From Anthopleura xanthogrammica (lineage: Eukaryota; Cnidaria; Anthozoa; Actiniaria; Actiniidae), in assembly GCA_964019055.1 (NCBI GenBank), contig OZ025209.1:16033351-16097350 (forward strand): DNA of 64,000 nt, given 5' to 3'. Positions 17,109 to 46,700 of the stretch are shown here, piece after piece. A model generated the notes under the pieces. That model made no database searches. It had not been told where the DNA came from and saw nothing but the letters and a program-made list of their open reading frames with translations. The position numbers and the translations under genes are program-made. Within the stretch, counting starts at the first letter, position 1, and each line of letters begins with the position of its first letter.

Positions 17109-20100
17109 ATGACCACGATCAAGTCTGTCATCGCAGGCCTTTTTCTTGTGCTGTTTTTCCACTCGGCCCTAATGGCTCATGGATCCAAGCTGTCAAAGCT
17201 GCATCACCGAAGGAAGTTGAAATTATGTAAGTGTCCAGAAATGAGTAGAGAATGGGGATAGTATTGTCGCGCAAAGGTGTCTGGGATCGGTACCCGGAAC
17301 ACTATACTTGTTTATTTAGTATTTTTAAATATTTACGATTATATAATTCAGTCGTTGTCAAAAAGGTTGTCCTGTGAAAAAGACTTAAAGACCAAATGAA
17401 GTATCACATGATGATTTGTTTATTTGTTTTAAACGATATAAATTCTGGTTTCAAACTCTATAATGAGTAACAACGAACAGAGAATAATAATTATGAACTC
17501 TACTTCTACAATGATTGCTGGTATCGAGCATTTGCAGCGAGTGTATTAGGTACCACGTAATATATCTTTTGGTCTAAATTGAATTTTTTGGTTGACAACA
17601 TTACTGATATTGACTGTACATATTTTTTCTCTTTCAGCGAATGAGAAGCTAAACAAAAGATCGTTTTACTACAATTCAGGAAAATTCCGAAACCTGCCTT
17701 TGAGGAAAGTAGCACACGCCGACTCCCATACACGATCACTGTATCCCAATTACTACCCATATCCCCCATCTCAGCCAGTCTACTACCCCCAACCAGCTAC
17801 CTATCCCGCAAGCTATTCAAACTACCCGGCGGCATCGAGCTCATATTCTAATTACTATCCTGCACCTGCTGCACCTGCTGCTTCCCAAGTTGTGTTGCCA
17901 GAAGTTTATCTGTACACGTCTGCATATCCGGGTCAAAGTTCAGTGTCACATGGAGCAGCTGCCAGTGAAGACACCCAGCCGAATCGTAATGAAATCTTTA
18001 CAATCAAAGACAAACGTGAGTGCTTGGTTGATTAAATCTAACTGTACAGAGATTTTTACTAGCCCAAGGAGGAGAGGGGTGAGGGGCCAACTTAAAATAT
18101 AGTCACATGTGTCATAGGCACTTTAAAAACCAATCAATAAGGAAAGGTTTCACGACTTTGAGCAGCTGTACGCACGCTTTTTTCCCCCTTGCTGGTGTTG
18201 TTGCTGCTACTGCTATTGTTGCTGTTGTTAATGATGTTAGTGTTGCTGTTGCTGTTACCGTTGATGTTGTTGTTGATGATGATGTTATCTTTGCGGTTTT
18301 TTGTTGTTGTTGTTGTTGATGCTTCTGTTGTTGTGGCTGTTCTTCTTTTTTATTGTTCTTGTTGTCGTTGCTGCTGTTCACTTGATGCTTCTGTTGTTGT
18401 TGTTGTTGCTGTTGTGGTGGTCATTGCTGCTGTTGATGCTGCTGCTGTTGTTGTTGCTGTTGTGGTGGTCATTGCTGCTGTTGATGCTGCTGCTGTTGTT
18501 GTTGCTGTTGTGGTGGTCATTGCTGCTGTTGATGCTGCTGCTGTTGTTGTTGATGTTGTTTCTTTTCCTGCTGTTGATGTTGTTGTTGTTGTTGTTGTTG
18601 TTGTTGTCGTTGGTGTAGTCATTGACTAGCATTTGACAACAAGATCCTTTTTTTCACTTAGAATACAAGAGCATTGGCTGTTGGAACGATGATATGAACA
18701 ACAGAGCTCTAAAAAGCCAAGAAGGAAAACATCCCTTACTCAAGAATCTTAACTACAAAGCTCGAACAAATGCATTAATGAAGTGCGCACAAGTGGCCAG
18801 TGAGAAGAACTTTAAACTATTCGCACTACAAAATGGGGGACAGTGCTTCGGGCAGAAGGACTCGAATAGCTACAAAAAGCATGGACCATCACAAAACTGT
18901 AAAGGTAATTAGAAAATAGCTGTATAAATCTCGCTTTCTGATTCGTTGTTGGCGCGTGCATTATGAGAGCAAACAGCACGCGCGCCCATTTGTATTTTAT
19001 AAAAGAAATGATTTTATAAAAAAAAAAACGCTGTGGTGTGTAAAGTTAGAAAGCACTTGGAGATCACTTGTCAGAATACTCGAGAAGTGTTGTCGAGAAG
19101 TACGTCGTGCTTCTTCTACCACTTCTCTTGTGTTCTTTCAATCCCCGCGTGCTTTATAACTGCACAAAGCACGCACGCGCATTCTCTATTTCTTCAATAA
19201 TTTGAGTTGAAATGACTATACATTTAGTAAGTGAGTTGTTTTTAATCTAATTAAACCTATTATTGTGCAGGTGATGGAGAAGGAGGACCGCTTAGTAACG
19301 AAGTCTACAGGTAAACATATCTAACCTGGATTGTCAATGTGTAGACATTTTGAGAACTCGATTAGGCAGACAAAACTCAATTCACTAATTTACGTTTCAA
19401 TTGGCGCGAAGGAGCGAGGGGGAAGCGTGAATGAAAACTAGGACCTCCTATTTTTTGAGAGAATTCTAAGCATTTGGCAAAATTTAAAAAGAAAGTCTTA
19501 TGCGATTGAGTGGTTAATGGGTTTCCTGTGCATTAGGAGGGAACTTTTGCGCCAAAGCGCGCGCTATCCTCTGCTTATTCGTGTGCCATTTTGATTAGTA
19601 CTACTGTACCTTTCTCATTTCTTTAGCTTCGTTGAAAATAACAAGACCCTCGTTCCAATGGAAAAAAATCAAAGTCCAAGCGGCGGATGGTCCGGTTGGT
19701 CTCCGTGTGCCCAACCCTGTAATGGCGCACAGGGATCACAATCAAGATACCGTCCTTGTGTCTCAACTGCCCCCTCTAACCCTTGCTCTGGACCAGTATA
19801 CGAAACACGATCTTGTGCCATTACACTCTGCTTGCGTGAGTATAGCTTATCTCGGCTGTATTGGACAATAAAACCTTTAATTTTCTTTAACTTAGTATTT
19901 ACATCTTAGGTAGGGTAGGAACAGCTAGATAGCTAGGTATGTAGGTAGGTAGGTAGGTAGGTAAATAACTTGGTAGGTAGTTGGATAGGTAGGTTGGTGG
20001 GTAGGTAAGTAGGTAGGTAGGTAGGTAGGTAGGTAGGTTGTTTGGTTGGTAGGTAAGTAGGTAGATTGTTTGGTTGGTTGGTTGGTTGGTAGGTAAGTAG

Positions 20101-23100
20101 GTAGGTAGGTAGGTAGGTAGGTAGGTAGGTAGGTAGGTAGGTAGGTAGGTAGGTAGGTAGGTAGGTAGGTAGGTAGGTAGGTAGGTAGGTAGGTAGGTAG
20201 TAAGTAGGTAGATAGGTAATAAGGTAGGTAAGTGAGAAAGGAGAACGGGAGGAAAAGATGCCAAAATTTGAACGATTGACTGATCGACGGTTTTTTTCTT
20301 TCTTTTCTAGCAAGCGTAGTTGTTGGTAAGTAAAATATCTTCGATTTATTTTCTCTAGTTGAAGTAAAGTGAAACGAGATACAATAGTCTGTACACTTGA
20401 ATATAGTCTGATTTAGGATCTACTACCGGGTGTTTTATGGGTTTCCTGTGGTATGGGCGCGAGTTACGCTGTAACAGCTACCCCCTTTAGAAAATCCTGG
20501 ATTCGTCCCTGCTCCTGTAATGGCTTTCACGTGATGGTGCAAGCCTCTATTAGATTACTTATCTGATTGGTTATTAATTAATTGATTAATAATTTTATTA
20601 GGGAGCACAGCAGCGCCTAGTACAGCTGCTACAACAGGAGCACCAACTACAGGAGCATCAGGCTCGTCAGTAATGCCAGCTACTGGAAGCACAACACTAC
20701 CACCAAGTACAACTGCATCTGCATCCTCTGTCATGCCAGCCACAGGTTCAACTACCCCTCCACCTACTACACCCCCACCTACTACACCTCCACCTACTAC
20801 ACCGACAACACCACCCGCCCCAGTACCAACACCATCACCCCAGCCTTTTCCGACACCACAGCCTGCACCTGTACCTGCACCATTTCCACCAGCTGCACCA
20901 GAACCACTTGTAGTTCCAGCTAAAGGTAAGACACTGATAATGAACTGAAAACGTTACGAAATCGTTACAGTAAGAGAGCATATTCTACTCTATTCATTCC
21001 GTCCTTCCTTATTTCCTTCCTTCCTTCGTACATTATATTGATATTTATTTGTCTGTCAATATGTCTGTGCTTCTGTCTGTGTAATTGACTGACTGACTGA
21101 TTTTTAAGTGATTGACTGACTGAATGACTGACTGATTGATTGATTGATTGATTGAATAATTGATTGATTTTCTGTTCTGTATTTAGTTTGCAAAGCTACT
21201 GTTGATCTTGGCTTTGTTGTTGATGGATCAGGGAGTATCGAAGCCCAAGGTGCAGGAAACTTTGGCAAGTGCAAGGATTTCGTCAAAAAACTCATCGAGG
21301 AATTTGATGTCTCCCCCAAGGGCACCCATGTTGGAGTCATAGTTTATGACCACCGGTCCAAAGTAGAGTTCGGTTTTGATAAGTACACTGACAAGCAAGC
21401 AATGTTTACACACATTGATGGAATTAAGTATCCTAATGGCAGAACAAATACCGGAGCTGCTCTTACATTAGCAAAAACAGGTCTTTTCGAAGCTAGTTCA
21501 AGAAAAGGCGTGCCTAACATTCTTATAGTCATGACTGATGGGCAATCAGGGGATCAAGTCCTGCAGCCTGCACAGAAATTGCGTGACTCTGGAGTGACTG
21601 TCTTTAGTATAGGTATCGGTAAGCAATTCGTTGTAAAGGAATTGAACGATATGGCAACAGATCCAGATTCTGAACACGTGATTACTACAGGGTTTGACCA
21701 ACTCGACGGTGTAGTTGAGAAAATCAAGGACAAAGCTTGTCAAGGTAAATCAAGGGTGGTGTAGCATTAAAGAACTCGCCTCTGCCCCTCTCCCTCTCTA
21801 TCTCCCTCTCCCTTCCCCCTCTCTCTACGATCTTGGGTTCGATTCCTGTACTCGGCATCACATGGGAGTAGAGGGTGTTTGATTTGAGGGTTTTATATCT
21901 GGGTTTACCGCCGGTTTACCTCCCTACCCAAAACCTAGCACTCTTAATTTCAGTTAGTGAGTTAGCCATACCCTGACTTAGATCGGCCCAGAGGTTGTTT
22001 CAGAGTTTGATCTGTGAGTCTCAATCCCCTGAGAATTGAAACCTATTGTTTTGTCCTCCAAATTGAGCTGAATTCTGACGTGCTGCAAGGGTTCTATACG
22101 GTAATGATGTCTTAACTTGGGAAACCACCATGTTAAACTTAATTGTTTTATAGGCGCAGGAGGAGCAACGCAATCTCCAGCTGTAGGTATGTATTGTCCA
22201 ACATTCTCGACAACACTAGATATGAAATTTGCTTGTCATTCAAATACATGAATGTATGAGAATCGAATAAGGCCATTTTATTTTGCTCAATCTTTCCTCC
22301 TCATGCCATGGGCTTTTATCACACGGCACAATGTTTATTCCCATGAGAGCAAAAACATCGTTTGGAACGTTCTGAAACGGCTCAAAGTGAGGGCAAGGAG
22401 ACCCACAAGGGAATCGAAACCGATATGGCTACCGCGTGATAAAAGCGAATTCCCTTGAGTGTTACATCTTTCTATTGTAGTAAAAATGGTAGAAATATAA
22501 AAGCCCAACATGATACTTTATTAATGTAATTCAAAGTGCTACTATGATCAAATTTTTGACCTGCTGTTTTTATGCATGGACTGAAAGACCTTTGATGGCG
22601 AAGTGAAACGTCCTTTTCTTTTTCAAATATTTTTTTCCTTCCAATGATATTGGAGTTTAAAAAATTGGCGGCCATTGTTCATGATGACGTCATATTCTCA
22701 ATACTTGACTAGCCTAGGATTACGATAAGCTATATCGCAGCCTAATTTCAATCAAAATCAATCAAATTGAGCAGCATTATAGTATTCTAGCGGTTTTTTC
22801 AAAATTATCTATACAAATCAGTTGTCATAGCAACAGCCTCAGTTCCAGGCAACCCCTATCTAAAATTCTTAAGTTTTTGACATTTCTACCTTGATAAAGA
22901 TATCGTATCAAATGATATTATTATTATTATTATTATTTATATTAGTTTAAGACTTTATTTAAAGCTATTAATTTTATTTTTATTCCACTTTATTACAGCT
23001 ACTACTGCACCACCACCACCACCACCAACAACACCAACACCACCACCACCAACACCAGCACCAGTACCAGCACCACTACCACCACCACTACCAACACGAC

Positions 23101-26100
23101 CACCACCACCATCAGCAGCACCACTACCGACAGCCCAAGGTTTGAACAATGAAATTGCCTCTATGCTAGAATTTGGGATGACTGAAAATTATTTTTGTTC
23201 GAAATTTGCTGGGGATAGGCCGAGAGTTGTTAAACTTTTCAAATTCTATTTCAGTTAAGTTCTACGGAATAGATAAATCACAAATGAAATATCACTCTGA
23301 ATAAAGAATTTTGGACTTTTCTGAGACTTATATTTGATTCAATATGTCAATAGAAAAAAGAAAAAAGTAGAAAAAAGTTCTTGAACACAGGGTCGGCCAT
23401 AAAAAATCAGAACGGACTGTGATTGGTTAGGAAATCTAATGCCGCATAGCTGGTAAGGGACCGTTCGTTATTAACATTAGAGAGGGGCTGGTACGAAACG
23501 GGAAAGGGCAAGTAAAATTTGTACAACCCCTCCCCCCCCCAAAAAAAAAACAAGGAGGAAAGCGCACACTCCCCCTTTGGTTTTCCCCACCAAAACATCG
23601 AACCTCCTCCCCCCAATGAAATTTGTACATATTATATATATTATTAAGGTAGACTGTGTTTGGAAAAAATCTGCAAATATCTAGGCATTTTTTTATAATA
23701 ACAGTAAAGTTCATTGTCCTACTCTGAGATATATATACAACTAACGAAATCCTCAACAGCTACATCACTTTTCATGTCTTCATACTCCTTTTCGTCTTCC
23801 TCATCTTTATCATCAGTGAAAAATGCCGTATCCATACAGCGGCGACGGCGGAAGCTGAAAATCATTGGGGGCACTACAATTATTTTATTTTTACAAAATA
23901 CAAAATACAAATGCCTTTAAAAATATTTATGATTTATAGTTTATGATTTATCCGAACCACAATTTGGGGGGCCTGGCGCCCCCCAAAAAATAAGTGGGGG
24001 GCCAGTGCCCCCCCCCGCTTCCGCCACCCCTGACATATGCTATTTCATAATTACTCTCCCCATCATGATCACTGTCTTGTGTACATTCGACTTCTTGTTC
24101 TTGGTGCCTTTCATATATGTGGGCTATTATATTACCTTCTAATTATATATGGCTTCAGTTCCCTTTCTTATAAGAAAAGAAGGAAGCCCTAGAAAAAATT
24201 AAAAGAATCTGCAAGCTCACAAAAACCTCTGGATAACTGTGTATTGAGAACTCTGGACCATCTTTATTTTCAAGAACTCCCGTTTTGTACCAGCCCCCCT
24301 CTAATGTTAATAATGAAGGGTCCCTAAGCAGTAATATCAAAAACTCGCGACGGGTATCTACAACGAGTGCAGATAAAAAATGCAGATAAAAGATCCTTTT
24401 TGAATTATTCTCCTTCTTCGGTTTCAGCTCCATGTAAAGCCAAAGTTGACCTCGGGTTTCTATTGGATTCCTCGGGCAGCATCGAAAATCCTCCAAATGG
24501 AGCACCGGGCAACTTCAAAAAGTGTTTGGACTTTATCGTTAAAATGGTTAAGGAATTCGAGATTTCTGCTGATGGCACGCACATTGGTCTTATACGTTAT
24601 GAATCTACAGCCCAACTTATTTTCGACTTCAAGAAATATACGGACCAATCAAGTGTGACGACAGCTATACAGGGTGTGCCCTACACAAAAGGTGGTACCA
24701 AAACTGGACAGGGAATAACAAAGGCTAAAACTGATCTGTTTGATGCCAGTGCTCGCAGCGGAGTGAAGCATATCTTGATTATCATGACCGATGGGACTTC
24801 GACGGATGAGGTCGATGCCCCTTCAAAAGCCTTACGAGATTCTGGTGTTGATATATATGGTGTTGGCATAGGCTCAAATACTAATATGATGCAACTGAAA
24901 GCCATTGCAACGGATCCTGATGACAAGCACGTGTTTCAAGCCAATTTCGATGATTTGAATAATGTGGTGAAACTTATTAAGGACCAAGCTTGCAAAGGTT
25001 TGTTCATTGATGCAAAAATGGTCTTTTAATTTCCACTAGCCACGACCTTATTCGGGGGGTCCAAATAAGGGTAAAACGAGAAACGAAATTAGGATATTTT
25101 CCAATTGAAATAATGATTTTAGACACTCTCTGGGACTGGTATTCGGCCAAACGTTATTTGGACAGGGAAGCCGTATTGAGTCCCTAGGACTTAGTAATAT
25201 AGCATAAAGCTATATGTGCATTTAAAATTACCCGACCCACCTTCCATTACCGATTTGTTTTGTTTCTTCTGTTTTTCTTTGATTTTCTTTATGTTCGAAC
25301 TCGGGAGGCACAGGTACAGGTGAGTGACAACTGAACTGTTTACTTGAACAAACAGTTTTTCGAAATTTGCTGGGGAAAGGCCGAGAGTTTTTAAACTTTT
25401 TAAATTCTATTTCGGTTAATTTAAACCCATCTATTAACTTATACCTATGCTTTCTTCCCTAAGGTTCAACTACAACAAGCGGCTCACAAACAGGTAACTA
25501 ATTCAAATTCTATTTCGGTTAATTTGAGCACATCTATTAACTTATACCTATATATGCTTTCTTCCCTAAGGTTCAACTACAACAAGCGGCTCACAAACAG
25601 GTAACTAATTCAAATTCTATTTCGGTTAATTTGAACACATCTATTAACTTATACCTATATATGCTTTCTTCCCTAAGGTTCAACTACAACAAGCGGCTCA
25701 CAAACAGGTAACTAATTCAAATTCTATTTCGGTTAATTTGAGCACATCTATTAACTTATACCTATATATGCTTTCTTCCCTAAGGTTCAACTACAACAAG
25801 CGGCTCACAAACAGGTAACTAATTCAAATTCTATTTCGGTTAATTTGAACACATCTATTAACTTATACCTATGCTTTCTTCCCTAAGGTTCAACTACAAC
25901 AAGCGGCTCACAAACAGGTAACTAATTCAAATTCTATTTCGGTTAATTTGAACACATCTATTAACTTATACCTATGCTTTCTTCCCTAAGGTTCAACTAC
26001 AACAAGCGGCTCACAAACAGGTAACTAATTCAAATTCTATTTCGGTTAATTTGAACACATCTATTAACTTATACCTATGCTTTCTTCCCTAAGGTTCAAC

Positions 26101-29100
26101 TACAACAAGCGGCTCACAAACAGGTAATTAATTCAAATTCATGGTAGAATTGGTGGTATGTTTTGCCATGTCATCCAACATGGTGGCCATTTTGGTTCTT
26201 TGACTCTGCATGTCCCAATAACGTTCATTTGTCTCCCTCATGTTCAAATCCATTAATATTGGTTATCACTTTCTCCCTATCTCTCTTTTTAGGTTCAGTA
26301 ACAACTGGCTCATCAGGTTTGACTTTTAACATTGTTATTATTATTATTGCTATATTGTTTCGAATTGTTGACGCCCATCGGCTGGAATAGACCCCTTGCA
26401 GCACGTCAGTTTGGAGGACAAAACAATAGGTTTCCAATTCTCAGGAGATTAAAATTCTTTTGTTTTGCCCTCCAAATTGAGCTGCTCTGGCGTCACGTGC
26501 AAGGGGTCTATACTGCCTGGCTTAGCAGTAAGAACTTTGCGATCGAAGGTGAATGCTATTGAGAATTAAAAGTCCTGTGGTTCTCGCTCAAACTGGAATG
26601 GGCTAAACACCATTGACCCAACAAATCTAGAACATTGCTATGCATGTGGTTGTATTACTAATATCTTTATTTTTCTTCTTTCCTTTTTATCTTCCATGTT
26701 TTGTCACTGGTTCATCACAAGGAGCCGGTAAGTTGATTAGTAGCTAGTACTAGATAAATGAGCAATTATAGGGCCTTTTGCAACAACAGGTCACGTGACC
26801 TTACCCCTTAAATGGAACAGCTGTGTCAAAAATGAACATCAGAAATGAAAAGAGCACCTTAATATATATGTACTATATGTAACAATTAACTAACTCACTT
26901 TTGACCAATCAGAAACTGACTTACAGAATCTTACGGACTATATGTAACAATTAACTAACTCACTTTTGACCAATCAGAAACTGACTTACAGAATCTTACG
27001 GACTATATGTAACAATTAACTAACTCACTTTTGACCAATAAGAAACTGCCTTACAGAATCTTACGGACTATATGTAACAATTAACTAACTCACTTTTGAC
27101 CAATCAGAAACTGACTTACAGAATCTTACGGACTATATGTAACAATTAACTAACTCACTTTTGACCAATAAGAAACTGACTTACAGAATCTTACGGACTA
27201 TATGTAACAATTAACTAACTCACTTTTGACCAATAAGAAACTGACTTACAGAATCTTACGGACTATATGTAACAATTAACTAACTCACTTTTGACCAATA
27301 AGAAACTGCCTTACAGAATCTTACGGACTATATGTAACAACTAACTAACTCCCTTTTGACCAATCAGAAACTGACTTACAGAATCTTACGGACTATATGT
27401 AACAATTAACTAACTCACTTTTGACCAATAAGAAACTGACTTACAGAATCTTACGGACTATATGTAACAATTAACTAACTCACTTTTGACCAATAAGAAA
27501 CTGACTTACAGAATCTTACGGACTATATGTAACAATTAACTAACTCACTTTTGATCAATCAGAAACTGACTTACATATATTTAGCAACTGTCAGCTCTGT
27601 AACATCTCGATTCTTCGAACGGTTAATAATTAACAAAATACTCAAACTCAACTCAGTCAGCCACGTAATTAAGGGACTAAAGGACAGCGTGGTGGTGGCC
27701 GAAAGTCTTCAAGGCTGTCACTGATCAAGTTATATAACCCTATACCTATAAGAATGCTAGACAAGACATGGTAACTGAGCTAATAACATTGCTCGTCTTC
27801 TCAACTTAACCACTGATGCAACTAACAACAATAATAGTACAAGGTTTTGACGATACAACCGGTCGACACACCATGACATCTTGCTTATGCTATCGACGCC
27901 CTGGTGTCAATAACCTAACGAAACGACTGACCATGCGACCTTCTGTGCGCACAAAGACACGTGACACGTCATTTTAAGCACTTGATGGCAACCGTTGCCG
28001 TGACTTTTTTTTAATTATTATTATATTTAACGAGGAAGCCATACTCATCGGTGATGATTTTCAGGAGGGTCCTCACAGGGTTCGTGCTGCACAACAGGAC
28101 TTGAAAATTTGAAAATCTCTTAAAAAGGATACTTGAGAAACCCTTTTAAGCCCTTAAAAAACTAATAGCCTAAGAAACGTTCTTAGCAACATAAGTGACA
28201 ATTATAACTTGTTGGATTATATGGATTGTATCAGTTTACTGATTCAAATGCTTGTCAAATGGATTTGTCCATTTTATATAATCCCAAGAAACCCCTGGAA
28301 TCATTCTGAGGAATCGTGCACGAACCCTGATACTATTATTAATTTTAATGGCTTTTTAGGAGTCCAGCCGTTAGCCGTCTATCCCTTCAATAACCAGTTC
28401 AAGACAAGAGATGCCATTGGCAAAGCACCCGAAGGCGTTGCTAGCAATGTTGTTCTTGCTCAAGGATACAAGGGCCAAGCTAGTGGAAGCTACCAGTTCC
28501 AAGGCAATGCAAACAGCTACATTGAGATACCTAACAATGAAAATGGCGTATTGGATATCAAAGGATCTATAACTATCCTGGCCAAAGTGTTTATTCAGCA
28601 GAAAGGTCCGCTATTCAATTACAAAATTGACGGCTGGGGGGTACATTTCTGGATTGTAAACGGTCCAAAGCTCTTCGTTCGTGTTACTAAAAGAGAAAAT
28701 CTGGGTTTTACAACCCATTTGGAAACTAATCTTCAAAAAAATCAATGGAAATCTTTGGGATTCTCATATGATTCATCAAGTGGAGTGGTTTCATTGTGGG
28801 TCGATGGGAACCAGGCAGCATCGAATAACATCGGCAAGTTTGATATCGCTACTAACTACGCTATCCGTATTGGGGCAAAGAAAGGAGATACCAGATACTT
28901 CAAAGGAAGAATCGCTTGCATACAGATCTACAATATGGCTCTGAATAAAGATCAAGTATCCGCTGCCATGAACTATTGTGACAGATATAACACCAATGTC
29001 GAGCCAGCTGGTGAATCCAACGAATCGAAACCAAACCCCGAGGGAGAGTCCTACTGCAAACAACCAGATTGCGCCCATGTAGAGCCTACAGAGGAAGTAG

Positions 29101-30024
29101 TCCAAGGTAAAAATGGAAATGTTCCAGCAGAATTCGTTGAAAAGTACTAAAACAAGTCCGTAAGGAAGACTCTGATAACCAATTACCATTCACATTTAAA
29201 GACATTTTGCTAGGGAAACCGAATTAGTGCCATACGCTTTCGAGCAAGAAAATGGATCAAACTTCGTTTATTGAAATGTAAAAGATTACCTAATGATAAC
29301 AAATAAATACTATCAAAAAGTCAAAGACAGAGTTGTCAGTAAATTGGATTAAAAAGCACTCCAGTTTTGACTTCTTTCTACCTATTTATTTTAAAAAACT
29401 GCCATGTTGGATTACAAAACATACACTTAACTGGCAAAAAGATGTGGTTGGATATTCGTGGGCTGCGCGGGCACTGGACAAAACGTTTGTGTAGACAGTA
29501 ACCATAGTAACACATACAACAACAAAATGTCGAGAAAATTGGAAGTAACAACTTTTAGATGCATTCTGGTCTAGTTTGGGTTCCATCAAATTTTCATCAT
29601 ATGTCTTATATGGCGTTTTCGTATCCGAGGTATACCAGAACGCATGCACCAAAATGATTGCACATCATCTCATTACTTTCTTTAGGTACTGAATTCAACA
29701 CAAATAGCCGGTAAATTACAAGTCTTACGAATCTTTTATACCAATAACATTCCATATAATTTTCGCAAGGAAAAAAAAAGTTTTACTAATGGGGAAGGGG
29801 GGAAATGCGAATTGTCACCAACTTTATTACATTTTTCTAAATACGCCACTTCTTAAAACACATGGAGTATAGCAAAATAAAAAAATCACACATTTGTTGC
29901 AAAAACATAGGAAGATAGAAACTGATATTTATCTATTAATCTAAAATATTTTGCCAAAGCATCTCTATTTTCATAAAAATTGAATAGTGATCCCGAATCG
30001 ATGCTACAGTGGAGATCTAGACTC

Positions 30025-32637: not shown

Positions 32638-32789
32638 ATTTCTGCCTTGTTCATCATTAGTTTAACCTTGTGTGACAATGTCTTTAAATTGTCACGCAAG
32701 AAATGATCTTACGTCACGTGGTCTAAATTCCGAGAAGCAGCGTGGCTTGGACAACTGATCAGTCACTGTCTAGGCTAATAATACTCGCC

Positions 32790-34961
32790 ATGGATTCCAT
32801 CCTTGAAAACCTCAAAGGGAATGTCCAGTGTACCTTGTGTAATGATACACTTACTGAACCCAAGATTCTGCAATGTTTTCATACATTTTGTAAGCCTTGT
32901 ATCAAAAGACACGCCGAGCTGATCGAAGAATTCATCGTCTTTAAGTGTCCTAAATGTAAATCAGAAACTACTTTACCACAAGAAAGCGGCTTGGAGAGTC
33001 TGAAGACAAGTCCACTCCACTCTAGAATGTCGCAAATTCTGACTACTATTGAAAGCGAAAAGGTTTGTTCTGTTTCTGATAGTCATTCAGGAGCAGTTTG
33101 GTATTGCTTGGATTGTGATCAATCGATCTGTGAAGATTGTGTCAAGGGTCATTCTGCGTTTACCAAACTGAAACATCACAAACTCATTCGTGTTAATGAT
33201 ATGAAAAACGAAGACCTCGAATCTATGCTGAAGAAGGAGATTAACTGTACAACCCACTTGAATGAAATGTTGGAGCTTTATTGCGAAGATTGTGATGATA
33301 TCATCTGTTTGAGCTGCTGGAAGACAGGCCATAAAGATCACAAGATTATGTCATTAGACAAGCTCGTCTTACTGAAGAGGGCATTGTTGTACAAGCATCT
33401 ACAAGTACTGGAGCAGTTGAGATTCAATGACAAGGAAAGACAGGAACAAGAAGAGATTGCGCACAAAATACAAGAAGATGGAGAAAGAGCTATAAGAGAA
33501 GTGAAGGAAAACATAGCGAGAACGATTGAAAAATTACGTGAAAGGGAAAGAGAAATTCTGAAGCAAATCCATAGCAAGATGGACAGAGCCACCAAAAACT
33601 TGAATATAATTCATCATATTCCAGCCGTCAAGGAATACATCAATAATGTGATGGAAAGAGGACTGGCAAGTGAAATGATGAACATTCAAGAGACAGAATG
33701 CTCTGAGGATTTCATTTTCAGCCCTATCAAAAAATGCTCAGGACTTGCCTTCATTCCTAACCAAACCTTGCTGCAACAAGTGAACACAGGGCTGGGAGAA
33801 ATACAGTCCTACTCTAAAACAGACTATAGTATGAGTACTATTCAAATGGAGTCTGAGCCAGTAGCCTTGAAACAAGGAAAACTGCTATTGATGACTAAAA
33901 CATCTACAGGAGAACCCAATCATGATCCAGGTGATGTTATTGATGTTAAAATCAGCCCTGAAGAAAATGTGGAAATAAAAGAAAACTATGTGAGAACTGA
34001 AGGTAAAATAGAAGTGGAGTTCATGGCTAAAGTAGCTGGTCAACTGACAGCAGAGGTTCAAGTGAATGGGAATCATGTATCTAACTGTCCACTGGTGATG
34101 AATGTAGAAGCCCAAGAAATGGAAATAACGAAAGAGTTTAAGATGAAAGGAAGAAAAATAGAAACTTTGGATATTAATGGGATAGCAGTCAACAAAGGAA
34201 ATAACAGAGTCTCTATTGCAGATGGGTTTTCTCATTGTGTGCATGTATTCAACACTGATGGAGATCTCTTACTGACGTATGGCAGTCAAGGTAATGGACA
34301 GAGTCAGTTAAATAATCCTGAAGGTTTGGCTTTTTTGAATGATACAGACTTAGTTATAGCAGACAGTGGTAATCATAGAATATGTATAGTGAACATTGCA
34401 AAAGGGACATCCGTAAAAACCTTTGGTAGCTATGGTAGAGGCAATGGACAGTTTACTTCTCCACGTGGAGTACATGTTGATGCCGATAACATCATCATTT
34501 GTGATAATGGATATAATTATCCTCGTGTTCAAGTCTTCACAAAAGACTGTGACTATCAATATCATTTTGGCAGATCTCCTCAGTTTGGTTACACAAATCG
34601 TGACCCTTTGCATCCTGTCAGCGTAGTAACACATGGTGGACGGTTTTACGTCAGCGATTCTGTCTACTGCGTTATTTATGTATTTGAGAAGAAAGATGGT
34701 GTAATGACTAGGATATCAACGATTGGTGAGAAAGGCAGTGCTGCTGGTCAGCTGAGTGAACCATGGGGCCTGGCTATTGATAATGACCATAATCTACTGG
34801 TCTGTGATCGTGGAAATAACCGCATTCAAAAGTTCACATTGGATGGTCGTTTTGTTAAGAGGAGTGCCAATAACATACAGAAACCTTCTTATATAGCAGT
34901 TTTAAAAGACGGTCAGTTACTTGTAAGTACTTATTGCTCTGGTGTTTTCTTTGTAAAATAA
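32790..34961 (+). CDS. TRIM-NHL protein (RING, two B-boxes, coiled coil, filamin-like, NHL), intronless
   Basis: I chose the ATG at 32790 because the RING begins 14 residues later; the frame extends upstream without another Met in that context. 723 residues. RING at 14-56 (C14, C17, C29, H31, C34, C37, C53, C56). B-box 1 about 93-132 (YCLDCDQSICEDC), B-box 2 about 150-186 (LYCEDCDDIICLSCWKTGHKDH), a Glu/Lys-rich coiled coil to about 275, a filamin-type Ig domain (VEFMAKVAGQLTAEVQVNG), and NHL repeats from about 455 to the end (LNNPEGLAFLNDTDLVIADSGNHRI; LSEPWGLAIDNDHNLLVCDRGNNRI). This is the class of TRIM2/TRIM3/TRIM71. RING proteins of this type act as E3 ubiquitin ligases in the cytoplasm, and NHL propellers bind RNA or protein. 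The single exon suggests an expanded or retrocopied family. The specific target is unknown. Confidence 0.93.
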   Translation: MDSILENLKGNVQCTLCNDTLTEPKILQCFHTFCKPCIKRHAELIEEFIVFKCPKCKSETTLPQESGLESLKTSPLHSRMSQILTTIESEKVCSVSDSHSGAVWYCLDCDQSICEDCVKGHSAFTKLKHHKLIRVNDMKNEDLESMLKKEINCTTHLNEMLELYCEDCDDIICLSCWKTGHKDHKIMSLDKLVLLKRALLYKHLQVLEQLRFNDKERQEQEEIAHKIQEDGERAIREVKENIARTIEKLREREREILKQIHSKMDRATKNLNIIHHIPAVKEYINNVMERGLASEMMNIQETECSEDFIFSPIKKCSGLAFIPNQTLLQQVNTGLGEIQSYSKTDYSMSTIQMESEPVALKQGKLLLMTKTSTGEPNHDPGDVIDVKISPEENVEIKENYVRTEGKIEVEFMAKVAGQLTAEVQVNGNHVSNCPLVMNVEAQEMEITKEFKMKGRKIETLDINGIAVNKGNNRVSIADGFSHCVHVFNTDGDLLLTYGSQGNGQSQLNNPEGLAFLNDTDLVIADSGNHRICIVNIAKGTSVKTFGSYGRGNGQFTSPRGVHVDADNIIICDNGYNYPRVQVFTKDCDYQYHFGRSPQFGYTNRDPLHPVSVVTHGGRFYVSDSVYCVIYVFEKKDGVMTRISTIGEKGSAAGQLSEPWGLAIDNDHNLLVCDRGNNRIQKFTLDGRFVKRSANNIQKPSYIAVLKDGQLLVSTYCSGVFFVK

Positions 34962-41328: not shown

Positions 41329-43623
41329 CTATCTACGCGTGCGTCCAGATCTCCGAGTTGGTGTCGCAAGCGTCGTATTTTCTGTCTCTAAGATCCTATT
41401 TACAACAAACAAACCAGATCGAAAAGTAGTGACAAGTAGGTTACCATCATTTAACACCGTTATATAGCGCGGATCTTTGAGTTTATCAAGTGTTTTTCCT
41501 ACGAAACGACCATCCAATGTGAATTTTTGGATTCGGTTATTCCCACGGTCGCAGACCAGTAGATGATGGTCATTATCAATAGCCAGGCCCCATGGTTCTC
41601 TCATCTGACTATCACCACTGCCTTTCTCACCAATCGTCGATATTTTAGTCGGTACGCCATCTTTCTTCTCAAATACATGAATGACATTATTCGTATAATC
41701 ACTCACGTAAAACCGTTCATGGTGTGTTACTGCGCTAACTGGATGGAAATTGTCCTGTTTGGTCAAACCAAACTGATATTGATAGTCACCGTCTCTTGTG
41801 AAGACTTGGACACGTTCATTATGGAAGTCACATGCAACAATGTTACCATCATCATCAACATGCACCCCATAAGAATCATTGAAATCTCCTTCGCCTTTAC
41901 CAAGTTTACCAAATGTCTTTACCAGTGCCTCAGTAGTAGTGTTCACAATACATAATCTGTAATTACGATTGTCAGCTATAACTAAGTCTGTCTCATTCAA
42001 GAATGCTAGTCCTTCTGGTTTTAGCAACTTTCTTTCTCCACTTCCTTTCCTACCATACTTTAGTAGGAGATCTCCATCAGTGTTAAACACATGCACACAA
42101 CTGCAAGACTCATACGCAACTGCAATTTTGCTATTTTCTTTGTTAGCAGCGACTCCTGTTAAAGTTTGAGATGCTACACTTACGCCTTTCATCTTGAACT
42201 CTCTGGTTATTCCCATTTCCTGTGGATTCACATTCATTACTAGTGGACTGTTAGATACATGATTACCATTCACTTGAACCTCTGCTGTTAGTTGACCAGC
42301 TACTTTAGCCATGAACTCCACTTCTATTTTTCCTTCAGTTCTCACATCGTTTTCTTTTATTTCCACATTTTCTTCAGGGCTGATTTTAACATCAATAACA
42401 TCACCTGGATCATTACTGGGTTCTCCTGTAGAGGTTTTAGTAAACAATAGCAGTTTTCCTTGTTTCAAAGCTTCTGGTTCAGACTCCACATGAACAGTAC
42501 TCATACTATGGTCTGTTTCAGAAGAAGATTGTGTTTCTTCCTGCCCTGTGTTCACTTGTTGCAGCAAAGTTTGGTTAGGAATATAATCTGTTTTTAACTT
42601 AGTCTGTATTTCACCGATACCTGAAGCCACCTGTTGCAAGAGTTCTTCGTTAAGAACAAAGACAATCTCTGAGATATTGTTCTGTGGAATAGGACTAAAT
42701 ATATAATCCTCAGAGCATTCTGTTTCTTGTATGTTGACCATATCACTAGCGAGTCCTCTTTCCATCACATTATTGATGTAATCCTTGAGAGCTGGAATAT
42801 GATGAATTATATTCAAGTTTTTGATGGCTCTGTCCATCTTGCTATGGATTTGCTTCAACAACTCCTGCTCCTTGTGTTTGAAATAATTTATAACTTCATT
42901 TGTTTTGTCCTTGACTTCTTGTATGACTTTTTCTCCGTTTTGTTTAATCAACGAAGCAATATTTTCCTGTTCTTGTACTTTCTGCTCATCTAACATGAAA
43001 TTTTCCAGCTCTTCCAAGTGCTTAGATAACATTTCTCTCTTCATAGAAGCAAATGTGTCTAGTGATGTCAAATCGTGTTCTCTGTGTTCCTGCTTCATGC
43101 AAAACACACAGATCAAGGCCTGACAGGTTCGACAAAACACCTCAACTCTTTGACCAACATGGCATCTAGTACAATCATCTTCTCTTTTAAGAATAAATTC
43201 CAAGTCTTCTAGTCTTAACTCGTTGAGATTTATAAGCTTATGACTATCAATAAAAGTTGTATGATTCCTTAAACATATGTCACACATCGAGCGACTGCAG
43301 TCTAAACAGTACCAAGATGCTGGAGAATGACTCTCAGAAATCTTACAATCCTTTATACCTTCAACTAAGGCCACAACATCCAAGATTCTTGAATGTAAAA
43401 CACTGGGTTTTAGATCTTCCACGTTGTTTAGTTCTGGTAGAGCAGTTAGAGTTTGACATGATGGACACTTGAAGACGTTGACTTCCTCGATCAGCTCGGC
43501 TTTTCTTTCGATGCAAGGCTTACAAAATGTGTGAAAACATGGCAAGATCTTCGGATCAGTCAGTGTACCGTTGCACAAAGAACATTGGACATCTTTTTTG
43601 AGGTTCTCAAGGAAGGAATCCAT
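41329..43623 (-). CDS. TRIM-NHL protein, second paralogue, intronless
   Basis: The ATG at 43623 gives 764 residues, with the RING at 14-56 as in the paralogue at 32790 (C14, C17, C29, H31, C34, C37, C53, C56). B-box 1 (WYCLDCSRSMCDICLRNH), B-box 2 (VEVFCRTCQALICVFCMKQE), coiled coil, filamin-type Ig and NHL repeats (LKPEGLAFLNETDLVIADN; MREPWGLAIDNDHHLLVCDR) follow in order. The extra length comes partly from an internal duplication of a short segment after the coiled coil, where LLQQVASGIGEIQ is followed by LLQQVNTGQEETQ. The C-terminus is extended and basic (TPTRRSGRTRR). The coiled-coil end and filamin domain are far closer to the first paralogue than the B-boxes are. Probably a cytoplasmic E3 ubiquitin ligase, from family knowledge; substrate unknown. 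Confidence 0.93.
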   Translation of the reverse strand: MDSFLENLKKDVQCSLCNGTLTDPKILPCFHTFCKPCIERKAELIEEVNVFKCPSCQTLTALPELNNVEDLKPSVLHSRILDVVALVEGIKDCKISESHSPASWYCLDCSRSMCDICLRNHTTFIDSHKLINLNELRLEDLEFILKREDDCTRCHVGQRVEVFCRTCQALICVFCMKQEHREHDLTSLDTFASMKREMLSKHLEELENFMLDEQKVQEQENIASLIKQNGEKVIQEVKDKTNEVINYFKHKEQELLKQIHSKMDRAIKNLNIIHHIPALKDYINNVMERGLASDMVNIQETECSEDYIFSPIPQNNISEIVFVLNEELLQQVASGIGEIQTKLKTDYIPNQTLLQQVNTGQEETQSSSETDHSMSTVHVESEPEALKQGKLLLFTKTSTGEPSNDPGDVIDVKISPEENVEIKENDVRTEGKIEVEFMAKVAGQLTAEVQVNGNHVSNSPLVMNVNPQEMGITREFKMKGVSVASQTLTGVAANKENSKIAVAYESCSCVHVFNTDGDLLLKYGRKGSGERKLLKPEGLAFLNETDLVIADNRNYRLCIVNTTTEALVKTFGKLGKGEGDFNDSYGVHVDDDGNIVACDFHNERVQVFTRDGDYQYQFGLTKQDNFHPVSAVTHHERFYVSDYTNNVIHVFEKKDGVPTKISTIGEKGSGDSQMREPWGLAIDNDHHLLVCDRGNNRIQKFTLDGRFVGKTLDKLKDPRYITVLNDGNLLVTTFRSGLFVVNRILETENTTLATPTRRSGRTRR

Positions 43624-45210
43624 GTCGAGTAAACAAATTTTCTTTGAATTCCTGAACTGATCATGACATATTTCTTGGAATTATGAAAACGTGACCTCAA
43701 GGCCCATTTCTTGGTAATTTAATGTCACCCGTGTCACGCAACGTCAGCCAGAGTAGCTATGTTTCTTCATCGGATGATTTATTCAAGGATAGCAATAAAG
43801 CCATGGGTTCTAAAAGCAGCCCAGAGAAAAAGAAAAGACTGCCAGCTCAACAAATACATGGATTATTTTAATTTTGAACCGACATAAAAACAAAACAAAT
43901 ACACAAATAAATAATGAAGCATTATTTGTTTATTTCTTATCAAGTTATACTAGCACGTCTAAACCAAGTATTTTGCTTACCTAATAATTACGGTTGCCTA
44001 GAATACCATTATCATTATCTTACTATTTTTTCGAAGTTTAATAGCCAATGTGCACGAGCTCGAATTTCTAGCACAAAGCATGATGGGAAACCGAGTCCTT
44101 ACCCTTTGTTTGCTTCTCTAAACATTCATCTGAAAATTTTTCCTTCGACGTTTTCTATGGAAATGTAAGTATTTCAACAGACGAGTAATTTTTTTCTGAT
44201 ATTTCATTTCATTTCTTGGTTTCATTTTTGCAGGGCTCGGTTTCCCAGAGTGCTTTGTGAGCTTTGATGCACATTGCCCATTAAGGTGACGCACACTGTT
44301 GAACGCTCGATTGGAGCCAACGATGGGCGTGCTCACAAAAACCGCTGAGTAAAATACGAAATTTTATTGAGGAACCATACACGTTTTGAACTTTAACAGG
44401 GCAAAACCCCTCAAACTTTGCACTGGACTCTAAAAATCTACGTCATATCAATTTTTTTTTTAAATTAATTTTTCTAACGCATGAAATATTAGATTTTTGT
44501 AGGAATTTTTGTTCGACTTTGTGAGATTTTTGAGAGCGCTGAAAGGGCGAAGTTTGACAAATCGATGTATTTCTTTGTCTTTTATTCGAAAATACCCTAG
44601 TATAGTTGAATATTCACTAGCTAGCATTTGTACATGATAAAGTCCACAAAGAACTATTATCTTATGAGTTGTAATTTTTTCCTAATCCAGTGGCGCAATT
44701 TTTGCTTTTAATTGTTGCATCCATTAAACGCTGGTTATCTTGAAAAGGAGCTCGGGATGCCCCATTTTTCTTTTCATATTCGGAATCAGCATTAAATTTC
44801 ACTTTAAACTATCGTACTTTTTAAAAAAAGTTTAAGTCGGATCACATGCAGATCAAGAGGGTGGATTGGGTGGCTACCCCCCCCCCCCCCCCCACCCCGT
44901 CTTTCGGAATTTAAAAAAGAAGAATAGAGAGAAAATAAGCTATATACTGCCTTCTATAGGCAACAGCCACCTCCCTTAACATGAACCTGGATATGTCATT
45001 GCAGATATCTATCAGATATTAGTAAAATTCTACTACTATACTATTGCAAATCCTGCATTCTGATTGGCTAACGTACTCACTATCTATCAGCCGATAGATA
45101 GTGGGTAGAGAAAGCCGGACTTGTTTTGAAAAAATGGCGGCTTTTCCTTCGCGCTTTTGTGAAGTTTAGTTTAGTTTAGTATAGTATAGTTTAGTTGAGA
45201 TTTTTACTAA
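43624..45210. other. Intergenic between two minus-strand TRIM genes
   Basis: No exon is supported. A (C)n run at about 44879-44896 sits in a G-rich then C-rich segment (44850-45000) that resembles a decayed hAT-type end. At 45079-45101 CTATCTATC and GATAGATAG form a short perfect palindrome that shares TATCAGCCGATAGA with the foldback element next to it. Confidence 0.5.
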
Positions 45211-45329: not shown

Positions 45330-46700
45330 TTAGTACATGTTGGCCCAAGTATATAAGTTTGGTTTCACATTTATCACTAGTGGACTGTTAGATACATGAA
45401 TCCCATTCACTTGAACCTCGGCTGTCAGTTGACCAGCTACTTTAGGTATGAACTCCACTTCTATATTTCCGGGATTCGTTATCTTCTTTTCAAACTTTTC
45501 TACTTTATCCAAAGGATAGATTTGAACATTGATAACATCGTATGGATTATCGTTGAGCTTTCCGTATTTAGTTTTCGTTGTCACAATCAGTGTCCCTTTC
45601 TTTCCTTGTATGATACGATAATAATTAAATATGTCAACACTGCTCATGCTGGGATCTGTCCTTTTCACTATTATCATTACTCCGAGCCCAGATTTTACTT
45701 GTTTCGTAAGCTCTTCATTAGCAAGGAACAAAACGTCCGAGTGCTCTCCAACGACACAATCAACAGAGGAGTGACAGGTTTTCTTCATGTCCTTGTTCTC
45801 AACCACTTCACTTGCAACACCTTGTTCTATCAGTTTCTTCATGTATTCAATTGCTCCGCGTGTCTGATCAAGCACAGACTGACCTTTGACCTTTCTTCTC
45901 TCGGCTCTATCAACACTCTCATCGATTTGCTTCAACAACTCCTTCGCATGGTTTTGCAGCCTATCTAACATTATTTGCAATCTTTTCTTCACCAAAAGCT
46001 TAGTTTCTTCGCAATAGGTCTTCAATTCACTTGTCTCCTCTTCGATTATTTCGACCTGCTTTTCCATTTTTTGTTCAAGCACTTTTAACTCCTCCAGTTG
46101 TTTAGAAAGATGAGCTTTATTTTTCGATGTATACTTCCCCAAACTAACCGTCGAATGCTCATCATGACAATCTTTCAAGCACTCTATGCAGATATTCTGT
46201 TTGCAGTTTTTACAGAATAATTCCACAGCTTTATCAGCATGTTTTATACAGTTAGTTTCTCTGCTCACCATCAGTTTGATGTCTTCTTCTTTTATCTCTA
46301 CGAGAGATACAACTTTGTGATCTTTGATAAACACTAAATGGCTCTTCTCGCATTCGTCACACAACGAGCGATCACAGTCAAAACAATGCCAAGATGCTGG
46401 TGGATGACTCCCAGAAACAGAACAAACCTTCTCACTTTCTATGAACTCCAACACCTTCAACATCCTTGAGTGCAATGGACTTGGTTTTAGATCTTCTACG
46501 CTGTTCAGTTTTGGCAGAGGAGTTTGTGATTTACACTGAGGACACTCAAAGACGTTGACTTCCTTGATCAGCTGGGCTTGTCTTTTGATGCAAGGCTTAC
46601 AAAATGTGTGAAAACACGACAAGATCTTGGGTTCAGTAAGTGTATCATTACACAAGGTACACTGGACATCTTGTTTGAACTCCTCAAGAAAACTTCCCAT
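45330..46700 (-). CDS. TRIM protein lacking NHL repeats (truncated paralogue)
   Basis: 456 residues from the ATG at 46700. RING at 14-56 (CTLCNDTLTEPKILSCFHTF, then CPQC), B-box 1 (WHCFDCDRSLCDECEKSH), B-box 2 (VELFCKNCKQNICIECLKDC), a long Glu/Lys/Gln coiled coil, and a filamin-type Ig domain (VEFIPKVAGQLTAEVQVNG). Similarity to the two full-length paralogues runs through VINVKP and then ends; nine unrelated residues (NLYTWANMY) precede the TAA. A foldback element begins 8 bp beyond the stop. I infer that the NHL propeller was lost in a rearrangement or insertion there. The remaining frame is intact, so it may be a working NHL-less TRIM or an early pseudogene. Confidence 0.88.
   Translation of the reverse strand: MGSFLEEFKQDVQCTLCNDTLTEPKILSCFHTFCKPCIKRQAQLIKEVNVFECPQCKSQTPLPKLNSVEDLKPSPLHSRMLKVLEFIESEKVCSVSGSHPPASWHCFDCDRSLCDECEKSHLVFIKDHKVVSLVEIKEEDIKLMVSRETNCIKHADKAVELFCKNCKQNICIECLKDCHDEHSTVSLGKYTSKNKAHLSKQLEELKVLEQKMEKQVEIIEEETSELKTYCEETKLLVKKRLQIMLDRLQNHAKELLKQIDESVDRAERRKVKGQSVLDQTRGAIEYMKKLIEQGVASEVVENKDMKKTCHSSVDCVVGEHSDVLFLANEELTKQVKSGLGVMIIVKRTDPSMSSVDIFNYYRIIQGKKGTLIVTTKTKYGKLNDNPYDVINVQIYPLDKVEKFEKKITNPGNIEVEFIPKVAGQLTAEVQVNGIHVSNSPLVINVKPNLYTWANMY

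Follow-up and report, generated by a model that had tools for sequence, protein, structure and literature searches.

Can a minisatellite carry, in each of its units, a complete exon of the gene in which it lies? This question is raised by a tandem array in the sea anemone Anthopleura xanthogrammica, found in a stretch of 64,000 nucleotides of contig OZ025209.1 (the window, whose numbering is used throughout). The array and the exons of its gene described below lie on the + strand. The array probably is a minisatellite whose unit happens to hold one complete, frame-neutral linker exon, the copies of which would be spliced in separately.

The array is located between an exon for a von Willebrand factor A (vWA) domain and an exon for a laminin G (LamG) domain, a context that the original prediction had described correctly. 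The upstream exon (24428..24997, phase 1-1; Pfam VWA, E 6.5e-41 for 24430-24996) encodes the second vWA domain; the first is encoded by the exon at 21187..21744 (Pfam VWA, E 3.6e-43 for 21186-21746). The downstream exon, at 28360..29150, has an acceptor and is predicted to be the last one, with the stop codon (Pfam Laminin_G_3, E 2.7e-16 for 28362-29147). Both the vWA and the Laminin_G_3 matches exceed the Pfam gathering scores, as expected of a vWA/LamG extracellular protein. In the gap between the two vWA exons we predict a 33-nt linker microexon encoding eleven residues (22154..22186, from splice scores) and a Pro/Thr-rich linker exon (22999..23139). From their order, strand and phase we infer that the vWA and LamG exons belong to one transcript. 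Its product is a predicted secreted adhesive protein with a flexible linker, which would hold the array peptide.

An exact search of the window found seven copies of a 30-mer, starting at the positions originally predicted: 25464..25493, 25571..25600, 25678..25707, 25785..25814, 25888..25917, 25991..26020 and 26094..26123. There are no further copies in the window at up to six substitutions, nor any on the other strand. The spacing of the copies is 107 bp three times and then 103 bp three times, and the six introns separating them (77, 77, 77, 73, 73 and 73 nt) all run from GT to AG. The array as a whole is longer than the 25464..26123 initially assigned to it. Tandem Repeats Finder (TRF; score 1335, period 107, 7.1 copies), the copy search and a comparison of the edges place it at 25402..26140. 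These 739 bp are exactly seven units (three of 107 bp and four of 103 bp, the edge unit included) plus 6 bp, and the hexamer AAATTC stands at both edges (25402..25407 and 26135..26140) as a short direct repeat. It is a homogeneous head-to-tail array with units in the size range of minisatellites.

Within the intron, the full units differ at a single substitution column and a single indel, and besides only at one base in the donor of the last copy (GTAATT, against GTAACT in the others). The six introns are almost as uniform as the exons, with one variable base and one indel of 4 bp among them; exon identity is therefore no evidence of selection and indicates no more than recency or homogenisation. 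The original prediction had read the two unit lengths as contiguous blocks. The spacing agrees with this, but the intron substitution runs G,A,G,A,A,A across the array, and the history was therefore not simply one of two blocks. In the 289.8-Mb assembly, searched with simple repeats and very common words skipped, the unit has eight matches, all within the array; a transposon origin was rejected, dispersed copies not being found. Rfam gives no match anywhere in the window at gathering thresholds.

Each 30-nt copy is open in phase 1-1 and has acceptor and donor signals of its own, as had been claimed for the unit. The phase matches both adjoining domain exons, and the encoded ten-residue peptide, with Ser or Thr at seven of its ten positions, is in keeping with the gene's other linkers, which are rich in Ser, Thr and Pro. 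The splice signals were scored with matrices built from 30 related exons of the family, three of which come from this window. From the fetched loci, L018-L024 (near-identical to L017), L034, L036 and L056-L058 were left out; the duplicate acceptor of L017 was dropped, L047 contributed no donor, and the acceptor of L048 and the donor of L037 were set by hand. The array copies score 3.0-5.6 as acceptors and 7.4-9.9 as donors, within the leave-one-out ranges of the family (0.1-14.3 for 29 acceptors and 2.4-13.5 for 29 donors). The acceptor is an AAG, and its lower-scoring form is outscored by all but 5 of the 29 family acceptors. Since both splice signals are repeated with every unit, the copies should be spliced as separate exons. 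The array introns contain in-frame stops, and intron retention would therefore truncate the protein.

The seven copies may not be the full set of short exons in this gap: a likely exon and a possible relic follow. The likely one is a predicted eighth microexon at 26293..26316 (GSVTTGSS, phase 1-1), perhaps an older relative of the exon in the array. In a direct, anchored comparison none of 2000 base shuffles matched the array exon as well. An unanchored search of the remaining gap did not recover this resemblance (85 of 300 shuffles did equally well, and the top match lay elsewhere). At 26704..26727 lies a possible exon relic, in which TGSSQGA is followed by the strong donor GTAAGT (splice scores of the last 6 nt) without a good acceptor; the similarity of the eighth exon to it, at 26706-26717, is not significant (46 of 300 shuffles as good). 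The intron unit of the array has no significant match in the remaining gap to the LamG exon (61 of 100 shuffles as good). A MITE-like dispersed repeat lies at about 26386-26518, downstream of the array and outside its bounds.

Could the unit be exon-like merely by chance, in a purely intronic minisatellite? Tandem repeats abound in the window, where TRF reports 47 rows, some of which overlap; the interval from the vWA2 exon to the LamG exon itself holds a 65-bp array of 10.8 copies as well. Within the seven-copy array, exon-specific conservation cannot be shown. At looser thresholds short exon candidates are common in the window (33 on the + strand and 25 on the − strand). At thresholds derived from the array itself, however, an equal or better candidate arose in only 1 of 2000 shuffled units that had been tandemised; for random pieces of the window treated in the same way the figure was 10 of 2000, none of those ten with at least 60% Ser/Thr. 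The remaining 63,262 bp of the window hold six equal or better candidates on the + strand and two on the − strand. The four further tandem arrays of the window that were tested yield no such candidate. Together with the fit of the peptide to the linkers and of the phase to both neighbouring domain exons, this makes coincidence extremely improbable. An error of assembly, by which the array was collapsed or expanded, is suggested by the near identity of the units. Against it, the internal markers (G/A and TATA) form an ordered pattern across the units, and the assembly, 289.8 Mb in 125 contigs of which those listed measure 10-17 Mb, suggests long reads. Such an error, which we consider very unlikely, would alter the number of units and not their existence.

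A more serious alternative accepts the original exon as real and supposes that most of the added copies are skipped. The array would then be carried along neutrally in an intron, and the length of the protein would be independent of copy number. The weak AAG acceptor and the harmlessness of skipping a frame-neutral exon favour this, and duplicated exons are absent from transcripts in the earthworm metallothionein clone Lr6F14, according to PMC12783039. Yet the same 17 bases precede the exon in all seven copies and the donors are near-identical, the last one scoring higher; no copy is therefore singled out for skipping. We regard general skipping as unlikely, and separate splicing of the copies as the probable outcome.

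The protein search with the vWA2 exon gave four matches and that with the region from vWA2 to LamG gave 14, none over more than half of the query. In the latter search, six of the eight matches that name an organism are hexacorallian; the best four of these eight come from Actinostola, Pocillopora, Oculina and Montipora, and the two non-hexacorallian ones from a gastropod and a crocodile. The best match (P0005, 96% identity) runs through the intron into the LamG exon and is therefore a genomic reading and not a transcript. No database protein covering the array was found with the vWA2-to-LamG query or with the whole gene model; for the latter, 7999 candidates were scored without a match, and low-complexity words had perhaps filled the candidates. 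No matching protein was found in PMC12549020.

Amplification of exon units is also seen elsewhere in the family. About 210 kb past the window, on the same contig (16.307-16.339 Mb), 27 LamG and eight vWA exons are clustered in 31 kb. In the first scoring of vWA loci, 150 of 473 first-look candidates were covered. The cluster, like the array, consists of homogeneous tandem single-exon units of the same domain family; its units differ in carrying folded domains and in their length, from about 0.9 kb (915 bp) to about 2790 bp. Ten LamG exons of 630 nt are spaced at exactly 915 bp, and phase 1-1 was checked for these ten and for the eight vWA exons. The cluster suggests that the vWA/LamG family has grown repeatedly by amplifying exon units. 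Small candidate exons in phase 1-1, of 24 and 48 nt, also lie between the vWA exons of the paralogue L040.

The exact fit of the array to seven units and 6 further bp, and the presence of AAATTC at either edge, suggest that one ancestral exon was duplicated between short direct repeats. The starting point would have been a single 30-nt phase 1-1 exon, one of the short symmetrical linker exons that the family has between domains, with AAATTC in both of its flanking introns at a distance of 103 bp. The exon would have been duplicated with its intron by slippage or unequal exchange between the two hexamers. Replication slippage or conversion may have made the array as well as the unequal crossing over of the original prediction. 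Homology could then have expanded the array to seven units, the TATA insertion being present in three. Each spliced copy would add ten residues to the disordered linker that would join vWA2 to LamG and that may, as originally proposed, be O-glycosylated.

Among known systems, the array is best filed with exon-carrying variable-number tandem repeats (VNTRs) such as the KIV-2 repeat of human LPA, as a very small form of a kind already known. A complete exon with predicted splice sites in every tandem unit, and a repeated unit of 30 nt in phase 1-1 that keeps the frame, agree with this placement. According to PMC4378929, KIV-2 varies in copy number and repeats exons together with introns; its 5.5-kb unit contains two exons of 160 and 182 bp and is present in 1 to more than 40 copies. 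In both systems the tandem unit consists of complete exons and introns, and in LPA the copies set the number of protein modules; the KIV-2 unit, however, has about 50 times the length, codes for a folded domain and is an established polymorphism, whereas the array has units of 103 or 107 bp with one predicted 30-nt exon. Human coding minisatellites and internal tandem repeats alter protein length on expansion and may affect splicing at exon-intron borders, but those described in PMC2812944 lie inside exons or at a border, while the array unit holds a whole predicted exon with a whole intron. The micro-exon genes (MEGs) of schistosomes, seemingly restricted to platyhelminths, share the very small symmetrical exons, which in MEGs are alternatively spliced into similar proteins and make up most of the coding region (PMC4350168). 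The host gene here consists mostly of large domain exons (570 nt for vWA2 and 791 nt for LamG including the stop, against 210 nt for the array) and cannot be counted as a MEG. Nor is this a cluster of mutually exclusive exons, which must differ from one another; all seven are identical. The repeats of spider silk genes are the fibre itself, in contrast to the short linker here. The flagelliform and MaSp2 silk genes resemble the array in having several almost identical introns per gene, though of 496-2620 bp (PMC3522626) as against 73 or 77 nt.

Because the copies are identical and all donor-acceptor pairings keep phase 1, anything from none to all seven could be included without harm to the frame, and the 128 patterns of inclusion would yield only eight lengths of the protein, each ten residues from the next. 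It is conceivable, if somewhat doubtful, that the array works as a length dial tolerant of splicing noise, in which the range would depend on germline copy number and the mean on splicing. If this were true, a minisatellite would act directly on exon number in a family that grows by exon-unit amplification. Such arrays may be overlooked, since annotation and read mapping may have difficulty with identical exons of 30 nt. If its copies are indeed included by splicing, the array would be unusually small for an exon-carrying VNTR. It also illustrates how one linker exon could become an exon array by way of a 6-bp direct repeat in the introns on either side.

The 30-nt sequence GTTCAACTACAACAAGCGGCTCACAAACAG occurs in the window in seven exact copies, starting at 25464, 25571, 25678, 25785, 25888, 25991, and 26094; no eighth copy was found on either strand of the window with up to six substitutions allowed. 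The copies are spaced by 107 bp three times and then by 103 bp three times. Thus both the seven identical segments and the two successive blocks of unit length proposed in the original prediction were recovered. The introns between the copies are of the GT-AG type, three of 77 nt and three of 73 nt. TRF places the array at 25402-26140 (period 107, score 1335). A genome search with the array unit gave eight matches, all within the array, and none elsewhere in the assembly.

Open frames on the + strand contain, in order, the Pfam domains WSC (E 4.2e-7), TSP_1 (E 1.4e-8), vWA, vWA, and Laminin_G_3. The predicted limits of the vWA1 exon (21187-21744, E 3.6e-43), two linker exons (22154-22186 and 22999-23139), and the vWA2 exon (24428-24997, E 6.5e-41) fit phase 1; the LamG exon starts at 28360 (E 2.7e-16) in the same phase as the preceding exons. 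Its frame has a stop at 29148-29150, followed by AATAAA-like signals at 29302 and 29348, which suggests that the predicted gene ends with this exon. From order, strand, and phase we infer that the exons from WSC to LamG form one transcript. With the spliced vWA2-LamG model as protein query, the 8000 candidates scored yielded 14 matches. Eight of them name an organism: six hexacorallians (Actinostola, Pocillopora, two Oculina, Montipora, and Nematostella), one gastropod, and one crocodile. The DNA thus probably comes from a hexacorallian. Three further long open frames in the window are TRIM-like, with RING and B-box: 32787-34958 (+) and 41332-43626 (-) also have NHL repeats and a filamin-like stretch below the Pfam cut-off, and 45333-46700 (-) has such a stretch above the cut-off and no NHL repeats within its scanned part.

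Splice matrices were derived from 29 acceptors and 29 donors of family exons in this genome, the numbers left after some sites were dropped. Array acceptors score 3.0 in four copies and 5.6 in three, and array donors score 7.4, or 9.9 in the last copy; the leave-one-out ranges of real family sites are 0.1-14.3 for acceptors and 2.4-13.5 for donors. The acceptor score of 3.0 is at least as high as 5 of the 29 real acceptors, and the donor scores of 7.4 and 9.9 are at least as high as 9 and 20 of the 29 real donors, respectively. The predicted signals therefore agree with the suggestion that each unit carries an acceptor, a 30-nt exon, and a donor in phase 1-1. A retained array intron would reach an in-frame stop at its third codon, so protein could be read through the array only via splicing. 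In a paralogue on another contig (C5), the vWA exons are likewise separated by candidate short phase 1-1 exons, one of 24 nt (EKPTPTEK) and one of 48 nt (DASLVTPTIKPLTEQP).

A scan of 17400-29200 for short open phase 1-1 exons gave 15 candidates on the + strand (the seven of the array, two at 26293/26299-26316, and others) and none on the - strand; equally loose thresholds gave 33 (+) and 25 (-) over the entire window. Array-grade candidates elsewhere in the window number six (+) and two (-). When the unit was dinucleotide-shuffled and tandemised 2000 times, an array-grade exon arose once; among 2000 tandemised random window pieces it arose in 10, none of these 10 reaching 60% Ser/Thr; the thresholds were the array's own lowest scores, taken from the finding itself, and the figures serve as a guide. 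The array is real and well formed, and a chance origin of its exon-like unit is unlikely.

The 739 bp of the array equal three 107-bp units, four 103-bp units, and 6 bp, and this extra AAATTC stands at both edges (25402-25407 and 26135-26140). The simplest reading is a single ancestral exon with AAATTC in each neighbouring intron: slippage or unequal exchange between the two would have duplicated the exon unit, which would then have expanded. Compared with the inner units, the left edge shows 2 differences over 62 positions. Variation among the six inner introns is limited to one column (G, A, G, A, A, A) and a single 4-bp indel, and one base sets the last donor apart from the others. By simple arithmetic, the chance that three random events on a 103-bp unit all miss the 30-nt exon is roughly one in three. 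Given how little the units vary, identical predicted exons show no more than a recent origin or continuing homogenisation of the array. Recent expansion, as originally proposed, is one of these two readings.

A second minisatellite lies between vWA2 and LamG at 26872-27575 (10.8 copies of a 65-bp unit, matching at 97%); in the genome its unit has 11 matches, every one at that array. Homogeneous minisatellites also occur at 2089-2550 (46 bp, 10 copies) and 4298-4643 (57 bp, 6.1 copies). The short-exon test found no exon candidate within the 65-bp array, and none were found in the other two. A dispersed MITE-like repeat of about 130 bp, matching itself in reverse, is located at ~26386-26518 (748-bp query, 40 scored of 3924 first-look candidates).

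Exon-carrying repeats are already known, and the array would be a small version of this type. The LPA KIV-2 unit has two exons and two introns in 1 to >40 copies (PMC4378929), and measures 5.5 kb versus 103/107 bp here. Small symmetrical exons, as predicted in the array, are described as a mark of schistosome MEGs (PMC4350168), and almost identical introns within a single gene, also seen in the array, are reported for spider silk genes (PMC3522626). Likewise, minisatellites altering exons or exon borders are described in human paralogues (PMC2812944), and duplicated exons absent from the final transcript in an earthworm metallothionein clone (PMC12783039). A word-based search of open-licence literature found no unit of ~100 bp that contains a complete exon together with a complete intron.

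Each unit would likely act as a self-contained, frame-neutral splicing cassette adding ten residues, and the seven predicted copies together would lengthen the linker from vWA2 to LamG by 70 residues, 49 of them Ser/Thr. Other predicted linkers are Pro/Thr/Ser-rich, and the one before vWA1 has its own 15-bp in-frame repeat (TTPPP, 20751-20803), so the predicted protein probably tolerates altered linker length. This repeat is a second possible site of such change within the gene. The array linker may be O-glycosylated, its length may be tuned, and its copy number may be polymorphic.

Larger exon-unit arrays occur in the same family on the window's own contig (C4). Ten LamG exons, each 630 nt long and spaced exactly 915 bp apart, lie about 210 kb beyond the end of the window. 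Mean pairwise identity is 98.6% in exons and 97.1% in introns (28 of 630 and 19 of 285 columns variable, respectively), and 11 of the 22 variable codons have synonymous changes only. Beyond them, vWA and then LamG exons follow, mostly in ~2790-bp units with one interval of 4633. Altogether, C4:16307062-16338541 (loci L044, L045, L041, L042, and L043) contains 27 LamG matches and eight vWA exons in 31 kb, the vWA exons being at least 99.8% identical, with a tandem spacing of 915-945 bp and a higher-order unit of ~2790 bp. A check of exon limits and phase 1-1 covered the ten LamG exons and the eight vWA exons; the other LamG are matches only. Upstream, at 16.2909-16.3002 Mb, are ten more LamG matches spaced 949-1028 bp apart. 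Taken with the predicted 30-nt exons, these arrays indicate that the vWA/LamG family repeats exon-carrying units on three size scales, ~0.1, 0.9, and 2.8 kb.
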